36,600 nucleotides of DNA from a virus, in IMG/VR virus record IMGVR_UViG_3300023170_004809, positions 1 to 36,600 of that record; one strand, 5' to 3'. The notes under the pieces were generated by a model. That model ran no database searches. It was not told the origin of the DNA and saw only the letters and a list, made by a program, of their open reading frames with translations. This document shows positions 1,069 to 36,600 of this stretch, in pieces. A program made the position numbers and the translations under genes. Numbering within the stretch: the first letter of the stretch is position 1; each line of letters starts with the position of its first letter.

Positions 1069-1959
1069 TTAATAACATTTCTCTTGGAAATTAATATGAA
1101 AATTTGGTATACCCTTATAAAGGCAGAACTCATTAAACCTGCTAAAATTTTTAAATAAAAAGTTAGTCTCCTGCAAGAGATAGAAATCAATTAAGGCTTC
1201 TTTGGCAATCTTGGTCCTACCATAATCTTCTTCTTTTTTAAGGACATCTGAGGTGGACTTTTCGCCTTTTTCGTGACCAGTGCCGCATCCCGGTGGAGCA
1301 AAATACCTATCGGAGACTATAGATTGAGGATAGGCATTTTGAAATAAATCAACAAACTGCCGAGAGTCAGAAGCGATGAAAAATTTATAACTATCGCAAG
1401 CTTTTAAGAATGCACGTGGTGAATCAAAAAGAACATGATCTATCCTCTCTTTAAAAATGTGGAAAATAGTTTCAATAGGATTTCTTTCTCCTTGAAAACG
1501 ATTGGAGTTTCCTGTTTTGGGAGGCAAAACTTCGCCATTAGAGCAACGGGCATGAACACCAACAATATAATTACCAGAAAAATTAGAATAGGCAAAAGAC
1601 TCCATTGGTATAGAGACAGATTCGCTAGGGATAATTCTTTTGAAATTTTTATAAAACCGCTTTAAATCTTCGATAGATTTTGAGGCATCTCTAATTTTTA
1701 AAACTTTGGAGGTGTGTCTTTCCGCTTCTTTTTTATTGGCATCAATTTCTGTTTCATCAGTGATGATATTTATATCAGTATCTATCCCTGAAAAATATTC
1801 ATTAAATAAATTTTTTTCTCCCTTGCTCATCCATGCGCCACGAAAGTCGATAAGCATATCTTTTTTGTTGTCCTCGCAATACAAAAGAGCATTTGTTAAA
1901 TGCCAGAGAGTATCACCCCAGCCGGTGTCACGGGTAAAGTAGTAATAGTTGTTCACCAT
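1069..1959 (-). CDS. NodZ/GT23-like fucosyltransferase
   Basis: Likely a fucosyltransferase using GDP-L-fucose. The key sign is GVHARCSNGE at residues 134-143, close to the H-x-R-x-G-N-G-E type motif of NodZ and alpha-1,6-fucosyltransferases (GT23), in which the Arg binds the GDP donor. Further downstream are FFIASDSRQF (about 193-202) and a C-terminal EALIDFYLLQETNFLF, in the places where these enzymes carry their other nucleotide-binding motifs. The 296-residue length is near that of NodZ. The Gly of the GNGE motif is Ser here (SNGE). Genes for making GDP-fucose (gmd and fcl) lie at 15.6-17.6 kb, which supports the assignment. Another GDP-sugar donor is possible. The start is ATG at 1959 after an 83-base gap. 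Confidence 0.7.
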   Translation of the reverse strand: MVNNYYYFTRDTGWGDTLWHLTNALLYCEDNKKDMLIDFRGAWMSKGEKNLFNEYFSGIDTDINIITDETEIDANKKEAERHTSKVLKIRDASKSIEDLKRFYKNFKRIIPSESVSIPMESFAYSNFSGNYIVGVHARCSNGEVLPPKTGNSNRFQGERNPIETIFHIFKERIDHVLFDSPRAFLKACDSYKFFIASDSRQFVDLFQNAYPQSIVSDRYFAPPGCGTGHEKGEKSTSDVLKKEEDYGRTKIAKEALIDFYLLQETNFLFKNFSRFNEFCLYKGIPNFHINFQEKCY

Positions 1960-3540: not shown

Positions 3541-4337
3541 AAGATGACTTTCTCGCTGCCATATTTATCAAACATTTTCTGATAGTTTGATATTTTGTCA
3601 TAAGCTTTTTTGCCAAAGACTCTTCTGTCTGTACCTAAAAAATTAGATACATTGTTTTCGTCAATTTCAACGCCTAAATATTCTATGATTTTATTGAATT
3701 GCTTTACTCGATCTTCATAAGTTTCCAAGCTATATAAATCTTCATACTTAGAAACAAAACTATTCTTGGGTAGAAGATTATGGTAGTAAGGTAGGTATTT
3801 CTTGTACCATCGCACCCGGCGTTGAATCGGGGGCTCTTCAAGATCTTGATATTCAAAAGAATCAACTTTTGATTTATGCTCCTTATTCTCTCCTAGCTGC
3901 CAAACTTGAACTTGGTTTGCGAGCTGCCAAGAGATAGCAGGATAAAAAGCGCTTTCTCTATACTGATAGATGATTTTTATGCCATGCTCCCCGCAATAAT
4001 CTAAAAAATTTTCATTACCTATTTCAGAAACTGTACACCATACATGTTTAACACCATCAAACGTTTCGAAAAGAGAATCTAAAAAAGAAAAAAGCTTATC
4101 TTTATCTTCTGATATATTGTTAAATCTATTAAAGTATGGAATGCTTTTTGATTTAGGAAGAAGAGATGGATCCATATTATGCTTTGCAATTATATCTGCA
4201 TAGCGAGGGTTGTGTTCTAGGTCTCCCGTAAGGCTCGACAGAGGCTCGTGAACGATTCTGTCGTTCTTGTTTAAGGCAGAGATAAGACTAGTGGTGCCAG
4301 CTCTTTCTTGGCCGAATATTACAAACTTAGAATCCAT
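3537..4337 (-). CDS. Stf0/NodH-like sulfotransferase
   Basis: Likely transfers sulfate from PAPS to a carbohydrate. The N-terminus has FVIFGQERAGTTSL (residues 5-18 from the ATG at 4337), which matches the 5'-phosphosulfate-binding loop. A central IIYQYRESAFYPAISWQLAN is in the position of the 3'-phosphate-binding motif and resembles the R-x-D-x-x-x-Q-A-x-S-x-x-x-A pattern of Stf0/NodH carbohydrate sulfotransferases, including the Trp-containing stretch after it. The length of about 266 residues fits. A TTG at 4343 would add two residues, but ATG is preferred. The gene overlaps the preceding sulfotransferase by 11 bases. No PAPS synthesis genes are in the window, so PAPS would come from the host. 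Confidence 0.75.
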   Translation of the reverse strand: MDSKFVIFGQERAGTTSLISALNKNDRIVHEPLSSLTGDLEHNPRYADIIAKHNMDPSLLPKSKSIPYFNRFNNISEDKDKLFSFLDSLFETFDGVKHVWCTVSEIGNENFLDYCGEHGIKIIYQYRESAFYPAISWQLANQVQVWQLGENKEHKSKVDSFEYQDLEEPPIQRRVRWYKKYLPYYHNLLPKNSFVSKYEDLYSLETYEDRVKQFNKIIEYLGVEIDENNVSNFLGTDRRVFGKKAYDKISNYQKMFDKYGSEKVIL

Positions 4338-5013
4338 AACCAAAATAATTAAGATCAGCAGAAAAATGATTCTCTATAAAATCTTTAGAGTATTCTGAAT
4401 AATAATCTTTATAGCTTTTTTTCTTCTTATATTCAGAGCTGCTATTTTGTCGCCAATCATTAAATCCTGATTTATTTTCAAAGTTAAACCTTTCAGAAAG
4501 ATCTGACGTACAAGATTTGATGTCTTCCATTTTATAGAACTTATCTATTGCTACTTTTCCGTAAAGCGATACTCGGTCAAGATTGTTTTCATAATAGCCC
4601 GCATGAAACTTTTTGATATTGCCTTCTTTATAGGCATAATCAATAAAGCCGTCAAAATCATTTGCGAGGTAATATTTCCTAAATTCTTGAACGTATGGCA
4701 TCATTGGAGAATCGATTTTGTTCTCAATAAAATAATCAAACTTCCAACCACCCAAATAAGAGAACATGGAAACAACCCTATCAAAAGGATTGCGAACTAT
4801 CGTAAACTTAAAATAATCTTTATAATCAGGAACTTCTGGTACGACAGCGCTTAAAGCTCGTTCGCAAGTAGTCTTGTATTTATCGTCGTAATCTTGTTGG
4901 TTTTGGTTTTCTTCGTAACCTTCTTCTATGTTTGACAATAGAAAATGCTTTATGAATGTTCCTGCAGATTTAGGGATATGGACATATATGAACTTATGAT
5001 CGCGACTATACAT
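4327..5013 (-). CDS. Sulfotransferase family 2 protein
   Basis: A 228-residue protein of the membrane-type carbohydrate sulfotransferase family (Pfam Sulfotransfer_2). The 5'-PAPS loop is HIPKSAGTF at residues 12-20, and the 3'-phosphate site is FTIVRNPFDRVVSMF at 70-84, with R74 and S82 as expected. It has no N-terminal membrane segment, unlike the Golgi enzymes, so it should act in the cytoplasm. It lies directly beside a second, differently built sulfotransferase, which suggests that two positions or two sugars are sulfated. Its start overlaps the stop of the upstream GT8-like gene by 8 bases. Assignment to the family is firm; the acceptor is unknown. Confidence 0.88.
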   Translation of the reverse strand: MYSRDHKFIYVHIPKSAGTFIKHFLLSNIEEGYEENQNQQDYDDKYKTTCERALSAVVPEVPDYKDYFKFTIVRNPFDRVVSMFSYLGGWKFDYFIENKIDSPMMPYVQEFRKYYLANDFDGFIDYAYKEGNIKKFHAGYYENNLDRVSLYGKVAIDKFYKMEDIKSCTSDLSERFNFENKSGFNDWRQNSSSEYKKKKSYKDYYSEYSKDFIENHFSADLNYFGYGF

Positions 5014-8061: not shown

Positions 8062-10722
8062 TTAATCCTCCTTTATACTTGCTGTAGCTGGAACAGATAC
8101 CGAAGTATTTGCATCTCTGATAATTTTATCTAGATTATAACAATAATCCCCAGTAGTAGAAACAACGCCAGCGGAATCACAAACTGCAAATTGATTATCG
8201 AAATCCATGCTGTCTACTAACTGAGTCCCGTCAGCAAAAGATTTATAACTATAAATAGTTCCACCATTTGGACCAGAACCCGGGCCAGTCGCGCCCTCTG
8301 CAATATTCTCAAAAGTCACATCGTTAGGATCTGATATAGTGGTACCCACAGGAAAAAGACCTCTTCCTAGCGCTGTGGATGGATTTGAAGCTACAGTCCT
8401 TGCGGAAAAACCTGCTAAAACATAATTTGGATTAACTGAAACAGTATTGGTTTCTATCCCCGCTAAATTTTGGCCACTAACAACCCAAGCGAAGGTTCCT
8501 TTTGTGTCTCCATCGTCAACTGTAATTCTATAATTGTTAGAACTAGTATTAGTTCCTGATGCTGTAGCAACTAAATCAGAAGGGACTGTTTGAGATGGAT
8601 TAGTTTCTAAAGATGGAATTTCCAACATCTGTTGAGAGGAAATTAAATTAAAATCGTCACTAACTCCAGCAGGAGAACTAGATAGTGTAGACGCCAAATT
8701 ACTAACAGAAAAAGTTAATGAATCATGAGCGATTTTTACTACTGTGCTTGCGGATCTAACCATACCGTTTGAGTTTTTTGTCGCTGTAACGGTAAAGTTA
8801 TCGGTACTGATATTGTAAGAACCAGCTAACCTGTCACAATTTTTCGAAGCTTCAAAAGTAGATGGATTTGATATAGTGAGCTGACTATTTGGGCTAGTAT
8901 ACTCTATGGAATCATAATTTAACGCAGAATTTGAAACAGTTGCAGATTCAGTATTTTTCAAAGCTCCTTGGCTGCCGGGATAAGAAACAGAAGAAATGTT
9001 CAACAATGGAAAGACGCTGTTGTTAACTGGGTGGCTTGTAGTGGATATCACGGAGTCACTTTCAGTAAGAAAATTATTTCGGGCAGTGACCGTAATAGTA
9101 TCTTCACCATCTCTAGCCGTAGAACTTGTTACATTAACGATAACTTCGTATTGATATTTTCCAGAATATGTGCCAGCGGACATAACTTGATTGATGTTAT
9201 AATATGCAAAAGCAGTTTGGCTTCCATCTGATATTCCATTATTGGCAACAGATAATTCAATTTGGCTTATGTCAACTCCATTTCCGTCAACATAAACATA
9301 GCATTTAATAGTATCTCCGCCTTTTATTTCACTAGAACCAATAACATTTGGAGTTGCCGCAGAGCTAGCAGAGCTATCCATTGTAGCAGCTTCGATAATG
9401 GGCCCATTGGCGATTTTAACCGCAACATTTTCATCATCAGTAGCGCCGTTACTAAAACGACTTGCAGAAATCGTGATATTATCTGAGTTACTGAAAATTC
9501 CGTCGTTATAACTAACTGTTTTTGGGTCTTGAAAAACTCCACTACTAGAAATAACTATATCACTGTTTAAACCAGAATATAATACCGTGTCACCAGCACC
9601 AGCAGACCAATTAGAAATAGAATTGACAAAAGTAGTTGATTCACCTTCTCTTAAGCCGTCAGACCTTCCATTATAAAAAGCCGGGTCAGATGCAGAAATA
9701 GAAGGATAAGTTTGGTCTAAAGTTATGCTATTAGAAGAAACGGCATCATTCCCAGCCGTACCAAAATTGTTATTAGCTACAATAGCTACAGGCTGAGAAC
9801 CAACCCTTACAGAATCAATAGAAACAGGAATTGTGGCGGTATAATTACCATCTCCAGTATCAGTTAATGCATAAGATGTATAACCAATTCCATCTGAAAT
9901 CCCAGAATCATAAACTTTTATACCTGTAACGTCAGAAGTATCAAAAGTAGCAAAAACATTAATTGTATCATCTCCTTTTAATGCCGAATTACCAAGGTTT
10001 TCTCCCGGTTTTGGAGTAGCATTTGAAATATCATCAATAGTTACATGCAAAGGATTCGGGCCAGCACCGGCTTCAGATAAAGACATTGTACCAGTAAATC
10101 CATTAGCAACACCAGTAACTTCAGTTTTTCCAACCAAATTTAAGCCAGAAATATAACCTTCAAATCTTCTTGTATAATCTCCTAATTCAACGATATTTCC
10201 AGTATCGATTTGTTGTCCGTCAATAAATCCAGACCCCATGTAAGAATCATTAGGCCCATCCCATCTTAAATACAAGGTAATATCATTTGCGGAATCAACA
10301 TCTATTCCAGATAAATATGTATCGGAAGTAGGGGTGGTATAATAAGTTTTTTGAATTATACCTTGATTATTCAAGGCATTTGAGAAAAACGCAAAAGAAG
10401 CAGATGGTATGGACGGTCCGCCTCCACCGCCAGAAGCATTGATAGTTATACTTTCAAGACCAGAAACTATGCTAATATTATCACCAGCTTGAATTGTCTT
10501 AACTTTTATATCGCTACCAACAACCCCACTAACCAGATCGACTCCGCTTCCAATATTAGTAGCAGTAGTATCATCCCCACTAACACCAGAAAGAAAATCT
10601 CTAGCTGAAATCTTGACTACTTTTCTTGAAGATGTAGAATTAGGATTAATTTCTGCAATGAGAATGTCATTATCATCTAATGATGATACTCCTGATAGTT
10701 GATCTGGTCTTAAATTTGGCAT
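8062..10722 (-). CDS. Large fibre/adhesin with two Ig-like repeat units
   Basis: An 886-residue virion-type protein. Residues 1-60 (DQLSGVSSLDDNDILIAEIN and on) resemble the N-terminal attachment segment of phage fibres of the LSGVSG type, and a GGGGG hinge lies at about 98-102. The body has two related beta-rich units at about 228-440 and 445-667. They share SALKGDDTI/SEIKGGDTI, GISDG and a closing VAVKIANG/STVVKIAHD, so they look like Ig-like or invasin-like domains from an old duplication. The C-terminus (about 670-886) differs and may be the binding tip. There is no signal peptide. It lies six bases after a small gene and one base before the 164-residue fibre gene. It is a plausible acceptor for the glycan cassette downstream. 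Confidence 0.75.
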   Translation of the reverse strand: MPNLRPDQLSGVSSLDDNDILIAEINPNSTSSRKVVKISARDFLSGVSGDDTTATNIGSGVDLVSGVVGSDIKVKTIQAGDNISIVSGLESITINASGGGGGPSIPSASFAFFSNALNNQGIIQKTYYTTPTSDTYLSGIDVDSANDITLYLRWDGPNDSYMGSGFIDGQQIDTGNIVELGDYTRRFEGYISGLNLVGKTEVTGVANGFTGTMSLSEAGAGPNPLHVTIDDISNATPKPGENLGNSALKGDDTINVFATFDTSDVTGIKVYDSGISDGIGYTSYALTDTGDGNYTATIPVSIDSVRVGSQPVAIVANNNFGTAGNDAVSSNSITLDQTYPSISASDPAFYNGRSDGLREGESTTFVNSISNWSAGAGDTVLYSGLNSDIVISSSGVFQDPKTVSYNDGIFSNSDNITISASRFSNGATDDENVAVKIANGPIIEAATMDSSASSAATPNVIGSSEIKGGDTIKCYVYVDGNGVDISQIELSVANNGISDGSQTAFAYYNINQVMSAGTYSGKYQYEVIVNVTSSTARDGEDTITVTARNNFLTESDSVISTTSHPVNNSVFPLLNISSVSYPGSQGALKNTESATVSNSALNYDSIEYTSPNSQLTISNPSTFEASKNCDRLAGSYNISTDNFTVTATKNSNGMVRSASTVVKIAHDSLTFSVSNLASTLSSSPAGVSDDFNLISSQQMLEIPSLETNPSQTVPSDLVATASGTNTSSNNYRITVDDGDTKGTFAWVVSGQNLAGIETNTVSVNPNYVLAGFSARTVASNPSTALGRGLFPVGTTISDPNDVTFENIAEGATGPGSGPNGGTIYSYKSFADGTQLVDSMDFDNQFAVCDSAGVVSTTGDYCYNLDKIIRDANTSVSVPATASIKED
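8067..8073 (-). promoter_or_regulatory. Strong Shine-Dalgarno site for the 164-residue fibre gene
   Basis: The minus strand reads AAGGAGG followed by six bases and the ATG at 8060. It overlaps the last codons of the upstream fibre gene. It shows that this phage does use classical ribosome-binding sites inside operons. Confidence 0.8.
8722..10041 (-). repeat. Two diverged ~215-residue protein repeats in the fibre gene
   Basis: The parts coding residues about 228-440 (10041-9403) and 445-667 (9390-8722) align by eye at several anchors (KG-x-DTI, GISDG, NNF near the middle, VKIA at the end). DNA similarity is low, so the duplication is old. Confidence 0.6.
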
Positions 10723-15600: not shown

Positions 15601-16557
15601 TTAACAATTATCTTTACTTTTTTTTATGAACCAATCATAAGTTTTTTGAATTCCGAGCCTTAATGGGGTTTTGGGGGCAAATCCAGTATTAGACATTCTT
15701 GAATTGTCCATTTTCTTTCTAAAAGTACCGTCTGGCTTAGATGAATCAAAAGAAAGATCTCCACTATATTCAACAACAGATTTTATGAACAAAGCGAGAT
15801 CTTGAATAGAAACTTCATCATTTGATCCACAATTAAGATGAGAGATATTTAAATCATATATGTCTTTTGCTTCAATATTTTTAAGACAATGAATAACTGC
15901 ATCGGCAAGATCTTCGACGAAAAGAAATTCCCTGAGAGGTTTTCCGCTTCCCCAAACTTCGACTTTTGAAGAGCCTTTTTCTTTAGCGCAATGAATTTTA
16001 TTAATTAATGCAGGAAGCACATGAGAAGTTTGTAAATCGAAATTGTCTCTTGGTCCATACAAATTACAAGGCATGATAGAATAAAAATTATCTTCGTATT
16101 GCTTGTAGAAACTCTCGCACATTTTAAGAGCCGCAATCTTGGCGATTGCATAAGGCTCATTTGTATATTCAAGCTCACCAGTAAGTAGATATTCTTCTTT
16201 GATGGGAATTTTGGAATCCCTTGGGTAAATACAAGAAGATCCAAGATTAATTAATTTCTTTACGCCAGAGTCATGAGCCGATTTAATGATATTAGATGAT
16301 ATCATCAAGTTATCATATATGAAATCACCGCGATAAGTATTGTTGGCTAAAATACCACCGACTTTGGCAGCGCATAAAATAACTACGTCTGGGGAGTTTT
16401 TTTCGAAAAACCTAGAGACCCTAGCGCTATCAGTTAAATCTAAACTAGATCTAGTTCTAGTTATTATATTGTTATAACCTAAAGACTTTAACTTTTTAAC
16501 TACGGATGATCCGACCATTCCTCGATGGCCAGCAACGAAAACTTTTTGATCGGTCAT
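15601..16557 (-). CDS. fcl: GDP-L-fucose synthase
   Basis: Converts GDP-4-keto-6-deoxy-D-mannose to GDP-L-fucose by epimerising C3 and C5 and reducing C4 with NADPH. The 318-residue protein has the family signature GHRGMVGS at 10-17. The catalytic residues fall at the same numbers as in the E. coli enzyme: S107, C109, Y136, K140 and H179 (SSCIYP, EPYAIAK and TSHVLPALI). WGSGKPLREFLFVEDLADA in the second half is the usual substrate-side segment. The start overlaps the stop of gmd as ATGA, so the two consecutive enzymes are translationally coupled. All visible key residues are intact, so the enzyme is likely active. Confidence 0.96.
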   Translation of the reverse strand: MTDQKVFVAGHRGMVGSSVVKKLKSLGYNNIITRTRSSLDLTDSARVSRFFEKNSPDVVILCAAKVGGILANNTYRGDFIYDNLMISSNIIKSAHDSGVKKLINLGSSCIYPRDSKIPIKEEYLLTGELEYTNEPYAIAKIAALKMCESFYKQYEDNFYSIMPCNLYGPRDNFDLQTSHVLPALINKIHCAKEKGSSKVEVWGSGKPLREFLFVEDLADAVIHCLKNIEAKDIYDLNISHLNCGSNDEVSIQDLALFIKSVVEYSGDLSFDSSKPDGTFRKKMDNSRMSNTGFAPKTPLRLGIQKTYDWFIKKSKDNC

Positions 16558-17585
16558 TTAGATAAGAGCTCGTAATCGTTTTCGTACATTTTCTTGACCA
16601 GACCTTCGAAGCCAGTTTTACGAACCCACCCCATCTCTTGTTCTGCAAGCGAGCAATCACCGCAAAGTTTATGAACTTCTGCTGGGCGATAAAATTTAGG
16701 ATTGACTTCAAAAATCAATTGACCATCTTTGGTGAAGTACTTCTCTTCGTCTTCCGAACCTTTTGATATAAATTCTATACCAGCAAATTCAAGAGACTTA
16801 TCGAGAAACTCTCTTACGCTATGCATTTCTCCGCTAGCCAAAACATAAGCTTTTGGCCTGTCTTGATTAAGCATGAGCCAAACTCCCTCCATGAAATCTT
16901 CAGCATCAGTCCAATCTCTTTGCGCATCAAGATTGCCTAGTTGTAAAATTGGAATCTCTTTACCTTGTTCTAGAGCATGTTTAATTTTTGCTACTCCGTT
17001 GGTGATTTTTCTAGTAACAAAATCAAGACCTCTTCTGGTGCCTTCATGATTGAATAGCCAACCTTGAATGGCGAATAACCCATAAGACTCTCGATATACT
17101 CTAACTATATGGCGAGCTGCGCATTTTGCTGCCCCATATGGAGATTGAGGGCGAAGTGGATGATCTTCGTTTTGGGGTGTGCAAATAACATCACCAAACT
17201 CTTCAGATGATCCCGCGTTGTAAAACCTGCAGTGAGGAGCAAATCGACGAATGGACTCTAAAATATGAAGAACCGCGTCAGCGTCAGTATCCCAAGTTTG
17301 AATAGGATAGTCCCAACTACCAGCAACAAAAGATTGCGCGGCAAAGTTAATAAAGTAGTCAGGCTGAATATCAATAATGACATCACGCATGCTGTGTGCA
17401 TCGTTAAGGTCCATATTGATTAATTCAAATCTAGGTTCATTATCCAAATGAAGAATGTTTTCGTGATTCTTTACGCTTAGCCTTCTTACCGCGCCATAAA
17501 TTTTATGATTTGTATTGGCTAATAAATAGTCAGCCATATGGCTTCCGTCTTGACCTGTGACCCCAGTAATGATAACTTTTTTCAT
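16554..17585 (-). CDS. gmd: GDP-mannose 4,6-dehydratase
   Basis: Makes GDP-4-keto-6-deoxy-D-mannose from GDP-D-mannose, using bound NADP+. The 343-residue protein starts with ITGVTGQDGSHMADYLL (6-22), has VRRLS at 33-37 for NADP, and shows the active site as S126-S-E128 with Y150 and K154 (SPYGAAK), equivalent to T132, E134, Y156 and K160 of E. coli. NHEGTRRGLDFVTRKI and LGNLDAQRDW are the expected substrate and tetramer segments. Its product feeds GDP-fucose synthase next door, and may also feed the perosamine-synthase-like aminotransferase at 20.3 kb. All key residues are present. The second active-site position is Ser rather than the usual Thr. Confidence 0.96.
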   Translation of the reverse strand: MKKVIITGVTGQDGSHMADYLLANTNHKIYGAVRRLSVKNHENILHLDNEPRFELINMDLNDAHSMRDVIIDIQPDYFINFAAQSFVAGSWDYPIQTWDTDADAVLHILESIRRFAPHCRFYNAGSSEEFGDVICTPQNEDHPLRPQSPYGAAKCAARHIVRVYRESYGLFAIQGWLFNHEGTRRGLDFVTRKITNGVAKIKHALEQGKEIPILQLGNLDAQRDWTDAEDFMEGVWLMLNQDRPKAYVLASGEMHSVREFLDKSLEFAGIEFISKGSEDEEKYFTKDGQLIFEVNPKFYRPAEVHKLCGDCSLAEQEMGWVRKTGFEGLVKKMYENDYELLSK

Positions 17586-33230: not shown

Positions 33231-33244
33231 TTGATAAATTAAGT

Positions 33245-33267
33245 GTAACCTTATACTATAAGGTTAC
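33245..33267. promoter_or_regulatory. Perfect 23-base palindrome before a virion-type gene
   Basis: Two 11-base arms (GTAACCTTATA and its reverse complement TATAAGGTTAC) flank a single C. It ends five bases before the ATG at 33273. A weak promoter pair, TTGATA at 33231 and TACTAT at 33254-33259, overlaps it, so it could be an operator. As RNA it would form a hairpin that masks the start region. Confidence 0.6.
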
Positions 33268-33272
33268 GGAAA

Positions 33273-35267
33273 ATGGGCAATATTGTTGGTACAAATTATT
33301 CAAACATCTCTGAACCAGAGGGCGAAGGCGAACCCTCACAACATCCATATTTCGCAATAAGAGGCGTTGATATATTTGACGATGAAAATGGTCTAGATAA
33401 AAAATCAGATGGAAAAGACCCTGTAGATAATGGCGTTAAAAGATTTTTAGTAAACGTTTCTCCTCATTCAAATTGCCTAAGCAGTAATACTATATTAAAT
33501 ATAGATTCTAATCAATTATATGCTCCATCAAACGGAACTAAAAATTCATATACATACGGAGCCTCTTGCGAAGGTTATTATGGTGGAACAGAATATTGCC
33601 CATCTGCAGAAAAAGCGGGAGGCGTATATAGTAATCCAGCTCCTATTGTAGGCGCTCCAGTTCAGTTTAGGCGAGTATTTTTTAGGGGTCGTAATGCTGA
33701 TCCAATAAAAGGGAATATTAGCGGTAGCGAAAGAGCTTATTCTGCAGTTTTTGCTTGCTCTAATCCAGTGGATGTAACCACTATATCAAACGGAGATTGC
33801 TATGGCGACCCTTCAGGAACAATATATAACCCTAGGGATGAAAATGTCCAATACGCAAGTTTTGCGTATGAAAAAGAATGGGATGAAATAGAAATTTTTG
33901 GCGGTGGTTGTAAAAACGCGTTTTCAATCATTTCTGGACAAACTTATGATTCTTATGAAGGTTTAGGGCTAACTGGTTATCAATCTTCTGGTTGCGATAG
34001 CTTTATCTTTTCTGGTTGTAGCGGAATACTTACGCAAATAAGCGGTAATCAAATTACAGTATGCTATACTGGTTCTGGTGCTGGATGCGAAAGCTTCACT
34101 GGATTCTATGCAAATTCCGGTAAATACAAAGCAAGCGGTTGCGATTCTTTTCAATTTACTGGAAAATCAGGAATACACACTTTTATAACGGGCAATGTCC
34201 TAACTATAGCCGATACTGGCTGTCGTGAAACATTCACTGGTTTTTACGCAAATTTTGGAAAATATAAAGCAAGCGGTTGCGACTCTTTTCGTTTTAGGGG
34301 AGTGTCTGGAATACATACCTCTATAACAGGCAATATCCTAACTATAGCCGATACTGGATGTCGTGAAACATTTACTGGATTTTCTGGAGATTCGGGAGCT
34401 TATCAAGCAAATGGTTGCGATTTATTTAATATTAATGGCGGAACAAATATAAAAACCAGAATACAAAGTGATTCACTGACTATTTCTGCGCCAAATTTCG
34501 CGTCTTCTGGATGCATTAATGTATCAAAAAATACAGAAACTAATACCATAACTTATGGAATTAGCAAAAACGAAATGCTTACATGCTTAGGTTATATTGA
34601 AACTGGGTTTAGGGTTCTAATGCCTACTGGAGATGAAATGCCTACTGGTTTTTCAGATCTCACAATGTGCTATTTTGAAATGCTTTACAAATGCCCAGAA
34701 GATGATACTACTTACATTAGCGGATGTTGTGTAGATCCAGAAGGTGCTTGTTGTGAAAATGGAAGCTGTTCTGTTAAATCTGAAGGTGATTGCGGAGGAT
34801 ATTTTTGGGGCGTTGGAACTAATTGTACTGATCAACCGGGTGGTGGTAGCGCACCTTATTATAATTATACTATCGCCCAGCTTTGTCAGGAAGGAGTGGG
34901 GTGCGTTTGGAATAGTGAACCTGCTGGAGGAGGGTCAGATCCGGTTGGATATGAATGTTATGATGGAGGTTTTGGCACAGTTACAAGAAAAGAATACCTT
35001 GATCATATAGCTAGCGATAGTAAATATCATTCAGAAAGCCAGTCGCCTGCCAGCTCTTTTCATGTAGGTGACCAGTGCTCAGACAACCCTTGCGGTACTA
35101 ACACGACTACCACGACTACCACTACCACCACTACTACTACTACTTCAACCTCTACAAGTACTTCAACCTCTAGTACTAGCACTACTACAGACTCTATGTA
35201 CGGAGGCGATGGCGGCGGCTACGGAGGCGATGGCGGCGGCTACGGAGGCGAACCGGGTTATGGTTAA
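33273..35267 (+). CDS. Virion-type adhesin with tandem repeats, Cys-rich domain and mucin-like tail
   Basis: A 664-residue protein, probably a virion surface or fibre component. Its central part has tandem 46-residue repeats around residues 284-375, with weaker copies on each side, each with GCDSF-x-F and ADTGCRETFTGF. A Cys-rich domain at about 474-555 contains GCCVDPEGACCENGSC, a pattern seen in repeat proteins of bacteria. From about 609 the chain becomes a long Thr then Ser/Thr tract and ends in a Gly/Tyr-rich tail with two 7-residue repeats (YGGDGGG). The Thr/Ser tract looks like an O-glycosylation site. A perfect palindrome precedes its ATG. No signal peptide is visible. Confidence 0.7.
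   Translation: MGNIVGTNYSNISEPEGEGEPSQHPYFAIRGVDIFDDENGLDKKSDGKDPVDNGVKRFLVNVSPHSNCLSSNTILNIDSNQLYAPSNGTKNSYTYGASCEGYYGGTEYCPSAEKAGGVYSNPAPIVGAPVQFRRVFFRGRNADPIKGNISGSERAYSAVFACSNPVDVTTISNGDCYGDPSGTIYNPRDENVQYASFAYEKEWDEIEIFGGGCKNAFSIISGQTYDSYEGLGLTGYQSSGCDSFIFSGCSGILTQISGNQITVCYTGSGAGCESFTGFYANSGKYKASGCDSFQFTGKSGIHTFITGNVLTIADTGCRETFTGFYANFGKYKASGCDSFRFRGVSGIHTSITGNILTIADTGCRETFTGFSGDSGAYQANGCDLFNINGGTNIKTRIQSDSLTISAPNFASSGCINVSKNTETNTITYGISKNEMLTCLGYIETGFRVLMPTGDEMPTGFSDLTMCYFEMLYKCPEDDTTYISGCCVDPEGACCENGSCSVKSEGDCGGYFWGVGTNCTDQPGGGSAPYYNYTIAQLCQEGVGCVWNSEPAGGGSDPVGYECYDGGFGTVTRKEYLDHIASDSKYHSESQSPASSFHVGDQCSDNPCGTNTTTTTTTTTTTTTTSTSTSTSTSSTSTTTDSMYGGDGGGYGGDGGGYGGEPGYG
34122..34397 (+). repeat. 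Two 138-bp tandem repeats coding 46-residue units
   Basis: Units at 34122-34259 and 34260-34397 share long identical stretches, such as CTAACTATAGCCGATACTGG. The protein units align without gaps. Diverged copies flank them at about 33980-34121 and 34398-34500. This indicates a fairly recent duplication. Confidence 0.8.
35199..35240 (+). repeat. Two 21-bp repeats coding YGGDGGG
   Basis: TACGGAGGCGATGGCGGCGG plus C occurs at 35199-35219 and again at 35220-35240, and a partial third copy follows. It is GC-rich compared with its surroundings and codes the Gly/Tyr tail of the protein. Confidence 0.85.
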
Positions 35268-35290
35268 ATTACGTGTATAATTAATAAGCC

Positions 35291-36600
35291 ATGGCAAGAA
35301 AAAGGGTAATATACCAAACAGAAGCTTTGTACGTAGGTTCTACTGGAGAATCTTCTCCAAATCAACTCCATAGAGTACAAAGCGCTTCCCATAGTATTGA
35401 TGTTCAATATGTTGACATTAACGAAATGGGTAAGCTTTCTAGGCTTTCGCGTGAAATTGTTGAGGCTCCCGTTGCATCTCTTGACTTTTCTTATTATGTA
35501 CTTGACGGGTACAACGAAAGTAAGATTGGTTTCTCTGTGCCAAACACTTCGGAAAATAGAGTAAGTATAATTTCTGGATTTTTATCTGATCACGAAAACG
35601 AAGAAAAAAATTATTACCTATTAACTGTTCCTGAAGGCCATGACGCAAGTGATGGATCATCCTCTTACGGGGCAGGCAATGGCTTAATGGGCATAGGAAA
35701 CGGTTTTATTACGAGCTATTCAGTTGAAGCTTCTGTTGGAGAAATCCCCATTGCTAATGTTTCGATAGAAGCTGCTAATTTAAGATTTGATACTGGTAGT
35801 AATTCCGTACAAAATCCAGCGATAAATACTGAAGATGGTTCCTTTATTAATAACAATATCACTATTCCAGTTTCTACCACAGGAAACTTGAGCGCTGCAG
35901 CATTAAGACCGGGAGATATTGTGATAGATTTTGGTCAAGAAACTCTTGATCAAGGAGGCGTCCTTTTGGAAGGCATGAATTATAATGATCCAAACTCTTT
36001 AAATAGAGATGGCAAAGCATGTATTCAAAGTTTTTCACTTGATCTGCCTTTGTCTAGGACGCCAATGCTTTGCTTGACTAATTTTCACCCAAAGACAAGA
36101 ACTCTTGACTTCCCAATTACCGCAACGCTTTCAATTAATGCGAACGTTGCAGATATCAGTTCTGGCGCATTAAACGATATAATATGCAATCCTGAAAAAA
36201 CTCGTGATATCACAATTACCCTTAAAAATAAATGTAAACAAGGCACGAGTATGATTTACGAGTTCAGGAAGGCAGTCCTTGATTCTCAAGGGATGAGTTC
36301 TGTTTTCGACTCGAGTAAAACTGTAGATTTGACTTTTAGTACTTCTCTTGATTCTTTTGGTAGTACAGAGAAAGGAGTCTTTTTGAGAGGACATATTGAT
36401 CCGCCTCCAACAACAACCTCTACCTCTACCAGTACCTCTACGAGCACCTCGACTTCTACGAGCACTTCTACGAGCACCTCGACTTCTACGAGCACTTCGA
36501 CCTCGACCAGTACTTCGACTAGTACCTCTACGAGTACTTCTACCAGCACCTCGACTTCTACGAGCACTTCGACCTCGACCAGTACTTCGACTAGTACCTC
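35291..36600 (+). CDS. Partial virion-type protein with long Ser/Thr tail
   Basis: Open from ATG 35291 to the window end: at least 436 residues, stop not seen. Residues 1-370 form a mixed protein with beta-rich segments, for example VQSASHSIDVQYVDINEMG near 30-48 and PRTRTLDF-like strands in the middle. I read it as a phage structural protein, perhaps a tail-tube or decoration-type, but the family is not certain. From residue 374 (base 36410) it is an unbroken alternation of Thr and Ser after a PPP hinge, running at least 63 residues to the cut. It uses many different Thr and Ser codons. TATAAT at 35276-35281 lies nine bases before the ATG. Confidence 0.7.
   Translation, partial: MARKRVIYQTEALYVGSTGESSPNQLHRVQSASHSIDVQYVDINEMGKLSRLSREIVEAPVASLDFSYYVLDGYNESKIGFSVPNTSENRVSIISGFLSDHENEEKNYYLLTVPEGHDASDGSSSYGAGNGLMGIGNGFITSYSVEASVGEIPIANVSIEAANLRFDTGSNSVQNPAINTEDGSFINNNITIPVSTTGNLSAAALRPGDIVIDFGQETLDQGGVLLEGMNYNDPNSLNRDGKACIQSFSLDLPLSRTPMLCLTNFHPKTRTLDFPITATLSINANVADISSGALNDIICNPEKTRDITITLKNKCKQGTSMIYEFRKAVLDSQGMSSVFDSSKTVDLTFSTSLDSFGSTEKGVFLRGHIDPPPTTTSTSTSTSTSTSTSTSTSTSTSTSTSTSTSTSTSTSTSTSTSTSTSTSTSTSTSTSTSTST
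36410..36600 (+). repeat. Thr-Ser coding repeat tract with 72-base period, cut by the window end
   Basis: From 36410 the reading frame codes only Thr and Ser. A 56-base block at 36473-36528 is repeated exactly at 36545-36600, giving a 72-base offset (24 codons). Shorter blocks such as CGACTTCTACGAGCAC also recur. The true length is unknown. Confidence 0.9.

Follow-up and report, generated by a model that had tools for sequence, protein, structure and literature searches.

Siphophage tail tubes frequently carry Ig-like domains as decoration. In phage T5 the tube protein pb6 has a body made of residues 1–374 and an Ig-like domain, residues 375–462, that lies outward of the tube (PMC5717097; PMC8718954), and phage SPP1, with gp17.1 and gp17.1* at 3:1, is the precedent for a tail that contains both a bare and a decorated tube protein (PMC8718954). 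Virion glycosylation by phage transferases has been reported for the mycobacteriophages Che8 and Rita (as cited in PMC11256854). We set beside these systems a linear viral record of 36,600 bases (36.6 kb), analysed as a whole and called the window below, which stops inside a Ser/Thr tract. The protein that bears this tract is, by a prediction of good confidence for its residues 1–373, a tail tube protein with a duplicated domain, as in phage T5. The features discussed are collected in Table 1.

Table 1. Coordinates of features in the 36,600-base window.
Feature	Position	Strand	Basis or remark
NodZ-type fucosyltransferase	1069..1959	-	PF05830, 39.6 bits, over cut-off; conserved in G001 and G002
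Sulfotransferase	4327..5013	-	PF03567, E 7e-17; phrog_3347, galactose-3-O-sulfotransferase
Epimerase, probably GDP-fucose synthase-like	15601..16557	-	PF01370, E 1e-62
GDP-mannose 4,6-dehydratase	16554..17585	-	PF16363, E 9e-107
Repeat-rich, fibre-like protein, 664 aa, with Ser/Thr tract near C-terminus	33273..35267	+	Homologs; cyanophage likeness
Tandem repeats of 138 bp (46 aa), with Cys	34095..34420	+	More copies in G002
GACC-type Cys-rich module	34719..34840	+	Missing from both homologs (G001, G002)
Ser/Thr tract 1	35103..35189	+	29 residues; T14 followed by mixed S/T
Gly/Tyr-rich C-terminal tail after tract 1	35190..35264	+	21-bp repeats
Predicted tail-tube body of the 35291 protein, residues 1-373, tubeB ortholog	35291..36409	+	AF2 model, VIA Z, tree
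C-terminal Ser/Thr tract 2 of the 35291 protein	36410..36598	+	TTT + 30 Ser-Thr pairs; 63+ residues, truncated by contig end
72-bp tandem duplication in tract 2	36455..36598	+	About the last 146 bases; 97%; two synonymous differences between copies

Tract 1 (TTTTTTTTTTTTTTSTSTSTSTSSTSTTT) lies within the 33273 protein, and tract 2 runs to the contig end in an open ORF of 436 aa (35291–36598). When all window proteins, with the tracts left in, were shuffled 2000 times, the longest Ser/Thr run was 10 residues (mean 4.4), so that the two long adjacent tracts of the preliminary description are real. That description erred, however, in having the 33273 protein end in its tract, since 25 Gly/Tyr-rich residues, DSMYGGDGGGYGGDGGGYGGEPGYG, come after it. 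All 63 codons of tract 2 encode Ser or Thr, with strict alternation at 60 of 62 steps, and each tract draws on 8 of the 10 Ser/Thr codons. The GC content of tract 2 is 52%, against about 35% in the rest of the window, and its codon usage also departs from the rest (chi-square p ∼1e-10 for Ser and 2e-5 for Thr, both approximate because the duplicated units are not independent). The earlier argument, that the diversity of synonymous codons reflects selection on the protein, therefore survives in part: the codons are diverse, and orthologs of the 35291 protein keep the Ser/Thr character of the tail with other Thr codons, which makes selection on the protein sequence likely, but tract 2 is partly a 72-bp DNA repeat.

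The AF2 model of residues 1–373 of the 35291 protein, built from an alignment of 48 relatives, has a pLDDT of 78.7 and a pTM of 0.80. It gives VIA Z scores of 20.3 to the tubes of both T5 and P74-26, 20.0 to SH-Ab15497, and 18.6 and 18.1 to DT57C, which agrees with the earlier suggestion that this is a virion-type protein. The top rows of the Foldseek and VIA comparisons are without exception siphophage tail tubes with a duplicated domain (Z 17–20); the next entry below these scores 11.1 and single-domain tubes at most 8.8. In the model a single chain thus contains two fused tube domains, matched over its full length. A tblastn search with the tube body against phage records found no direct homologs, and neither did single-sequence scans; a degenerate DNA motif scan found 121 places, all of them relatives; a profile search of solved structures returned only weak PDZ/DegQ matches; and the genome collection contributed a single distant relative, on a contig of a Halobacteriovorax MAG. 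The window tube protein matches no known major or minor tail protein family, and among its 48 relatives six match phrog_290 and one phrog_9522. Two tube relatives (L134 and L155) carry, in place of a Ser/Thr tract, C-terminal extensions of about 474 residues that look FG-GAP/propeller-like.

The likeness to T5 pb6 extends beyond the duplicated fold (Z 20.3 to 9iny): the body has 373 residues here and 374 in T5, and the C-terminal addition starts at the same place, tract 2 beginning at residue 374 directly after the body. What is added differs, an 88-residue Ig-like (Big_2) domain in T5 and a disordered Ser/Thr tract of at least 63 residues here. Because the arm leaves the body where pb6 bears its Ig-like domain, its expected direction is away from the tail, although this position, like the ring symmetry, rests on fold homology at 8–15% identity; in T5 the two-domain tube bodies form three-subunit rings.

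Further, T5 is described with one tube protein, while relatives of the window phage have several tube-fold genes. G002 (194.5 kb), its 44.8-kb near-copy G003, and L285 (a 103.8-kb contig) each encode a bare tube protein, tubeA, plus a second, tubeB, that bears a Ser/Thr tract immediately after the body; in G002 the order is bare tubeA, a shorter tube-like gene, and tubeB, and that of L285 is identical. On the tree, the 35291 protein is the ortholog of tubeB, forming a clade with the tubeB proteins of G002 and L285 (UFBoot 100; pair also FastTree 1.00). A Ser/Thr tract stands at the body junction in all three tubeB proteins, a small sample in which two are truncated by contig ends, and a Ser/Thr run of at least 8 residues follows the body in none of the 98 that reach the C-terminal end of the profile among 121 other family members (median, 6 residues beyond the body). 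The Thr codon mix of the G002 tubeB tail differs from that of the window tract (p 1e-5), suggesting that a property of the protein has been retained while the DNA has changed. SPP1 is similar in combining a bare tube protein with a C-terminally extended version, which for the present group is seen in G002/G003 and L285, the window showing tubeB only; in SPP1, however, the long form arises by frameshift, carries an FN3 domain and belongs to hexameric single-domain subunits, whereas here the two forms are separate paralogous genes and the extension is a Ser/Thr tract.

The window gene adjoins the fibre-like gene, while tubeB of G002 and L285 sits in a tail module, near the tape-measure gene in G002 and by its position in L285; the window contig contains no tail module. 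In the G002 tail module (L280, 150–166 kb), tubeA, the shorter tube-like gene and tubeB are accompanied by two more proteins that weakly match phrog_290 (minor tail protein). The shorter tube-like protein of L285 terminates in a T20 tail. Three proteins of G002/G003 have Ser/Thr-rich tails ending in Ser-Pro: a fibre-like protein (L267, 9682–12105, +), tubeB (L136, 4495–6432, +) and a 198-aa protein (L278, 2071–2664, −).

On a non-contractile tail the tube surface would be exposed. The family Phage_sheath_1 has no match in G001–G003, whereas control genomes do match, which argues for a non-contractile tail. A tape measure usually corresponds to about 0.15 nm of tail per residue, and G002 has, where a tape-measure gene is expected, an open frame of 4561 codons without a break, which would mean a long tail, near 0.7 micrometre. 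A PHROG 15433 ‘tail sheath’ match of the protein at 8062–10722 (−) was rejected as evidence for a contractile tail: the match is to PhiPA3 gp165, which is annotated like phiKZ gp145 and located between a transglycosylase gene and tail-fibre genes, no Pfam domain was found in the protein, and no sheath family matched in G001–G003; the label looks misleading.

We favor, with moderate confidence, the reading that tract 2 is a disordered arm which decorates a tail-tube paralog on its outer side. The 35291 gene would encode tubeB, a second tail-tube subunit of a long, non-contractile tail, composed of a T5-type body of two fused tube domains and then a long disordered Ser/Thr arm. Rings containing tubeB, or a fraction of subunits, would stand alongside bare tubeA, and the arms would either coat the tail with a hydrophilic brush or flexibly tether small modules like those of the relatives' tubeB, with a similar tail on the neighboring fibre-like protein. 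As the tube paralog carries its arm where other phages have an outward Ig-like domain, the tail is probably decorated; the tract, the predicted fold, the orthology and the shared junction are observed, whereas we infer the outward position of the arm, its presence in virions and its function. The safest statement is that a group of phages has a tail-tube paralog bearing a Ser/Thr arm at the T5 decoration site, with similar tails on one or two more of its proteins. Such a paralog, in which a disordered arm replaces a folded domain, is a natural comparison for asking whether decoration needs a fold or merely a soluble, flexible or sugar-bearing arm. Our confidence in this reading overlaps with that in two of the others, since an arm serving as a tether or as a glycan acceptor would likewise point outward.

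The strongest of these, which we hold tentatively and at somewhat less than even weight, is that the tract is a plain flexible linker tethering a folded C-terminal domain encoded past the contig end. The window tail is truncated and may run on into such a domain, and in tubeB of both G002 and L285 small modules come after the first T-tract; their match (E 3e-11) is to the C-terminal end of phrog_17312, a family of phage tail proteins. Ser/Thr tracts of the same composition, with mixed codons, are common in phage contigs as linkers of environmental phage tail and fibre proteins, and about 96% of those measured are internal: in closed ORFs of other phages, 130 of 135 lie more than 15 residues from the C-terminus and only 5 within that distance. 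The tract here, however, begins where a tube body ends, and G002 has three free C-terminal tails, on its tubeB, fibre-like and 105-kb proteins. Its tubeB runs from body through T-tract and small repeated modules to a final 148-residue tail that is 83% Ser/Thr (the L285 protein, with its T-tract directly after the body, is truncated by the contig end after the modules). Beyond tract 1 of the 33273 protein, too, there are just the 25 Gly/Tyr-rich residues.

Alternatively, one could envision a mucin-like surface, with the Ser/Thr tails as O-glycan acceptors modified by the phage's fucose and sulfate enzymes into a glycan coat. The many transferases claimed for this genome are indeed there: a GDP-mannose dehydratase, a fucose-synthase-like epimerase, a NodZ-type fucosyltransferase, a sulfotransferase and, in addition, several glycosyltransferases. 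The enzymes for fucose and sulfate are conserved in G001, and NodZ and sulfotransferases are present in G002 by homology, where the tails also contain Pro. Che8 and Rita are similar in having phage-encoded transferases and, possibly, decorated virion proteins, although glycans are reported for them (in the work cited above) and would be hypothetical in the window phage. The mucin-like character of the two proteins was only partly borne out: the Ser/Thr stretches (29 and 63+ residues) have such a composition, but the Pfam Mucin match of the 33273 protein (24 bits) falls below the cut-off of 34.7 and the 35291 protein has none. Tails and transferases occur together in the window and in G002, whereas G001 retains the transferases at 85–96% identity though its 33273 homolog has no tail, and family 2 glycosyltransferases are carried equally by tract contigs (21/46) and non-tract contigs (21/46), a coarse comparison in that the non-tract contigs all come from a single tube family, and G003, which carries tubeB and nearly duplicates part of G002, is among them. 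No polypeptide O-glycosyltransferase was recognised among the proteins scanned, the transferase clusters may serve host-surface or other glycans, and a predicted membrane/coiled-coil-like protein of G002 (L268, 7835–9175, −) has a 45-residue tract, so that Ser/Thr tracts are not confined to virion proteins. Our literature search yielded no relevant paper on phage tail proteins that are glycosylated and rich in Ser/Thr. We therefore regard a glycan coat as unlikely, and the fuller scheme, in which duplication of a tube gene gave rise to a decorated subunit and a very long tail is lined by its glycosylated arms as by a mucin-like brush, made by the phage fucose and sulfate enzymes, as a doubtful extension of it. 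If the arms were glycosylated, they would form a coat the length of the tail made by viral enzymes.

Neutral expansion, in which a disordered tail that does no harm and has no function grows by replication slippage and tandem duplication, appears improbable. The 72-bp duplication and the odd GC content and codon usage suggest recent growth, and the tail-less G001 homolog of the 33273 protein is consistent with it, but the exclusive Ser/Thr coding and nearly unbroken alternation of tract 2 are not what such a process predicts, nor is the maintenance of Ser/Thr in three tubeB orthologs, with differing Thr codon usage in the two measured. That the contig end is misassembled or chimeric is very improbable, for although the tract lies there and the gene order is unlike that of G002, short-read assemblies are expected to stop inside repeats (13 of the 80 tract loci listed are within 200 bases of a contig end, consistent with breaks there), the stretch between the genes of the two tracts is compact, the tube body is unremarkable in composition (38% GC), and the body–tract junction recurs in independent contigs.

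The neighbor of the putative decorated tube paralog, the 33273 protein, has homologs only in G001 (45% identity over residues 12–228) and G002. That of G002 has more of the 46-residue repeats and lacks the GACC module, and its last 168 residues form a tail with 89% Ser/Thr; that of G001 has neither the tract nor the Cys module, although this genome is otherwise near the window (mostly 65–96% protein identity). The repeat region is 31–32% like part of a cyanophage ‘baseplate wedge tail fiber connector’, and the 33273 protein is probably fibre- or tip-related, a weak inference given that its AF2 model, from three sequences, has a pLDDT of 29 and no usable fold. Shortly upstream of the gene start, at 33244–33268 of the window, lies a near-perfect inverted repeat, GTAACCTTATA-C-TATAAGGTTAC, to which G001 has a similar, non-identical element.
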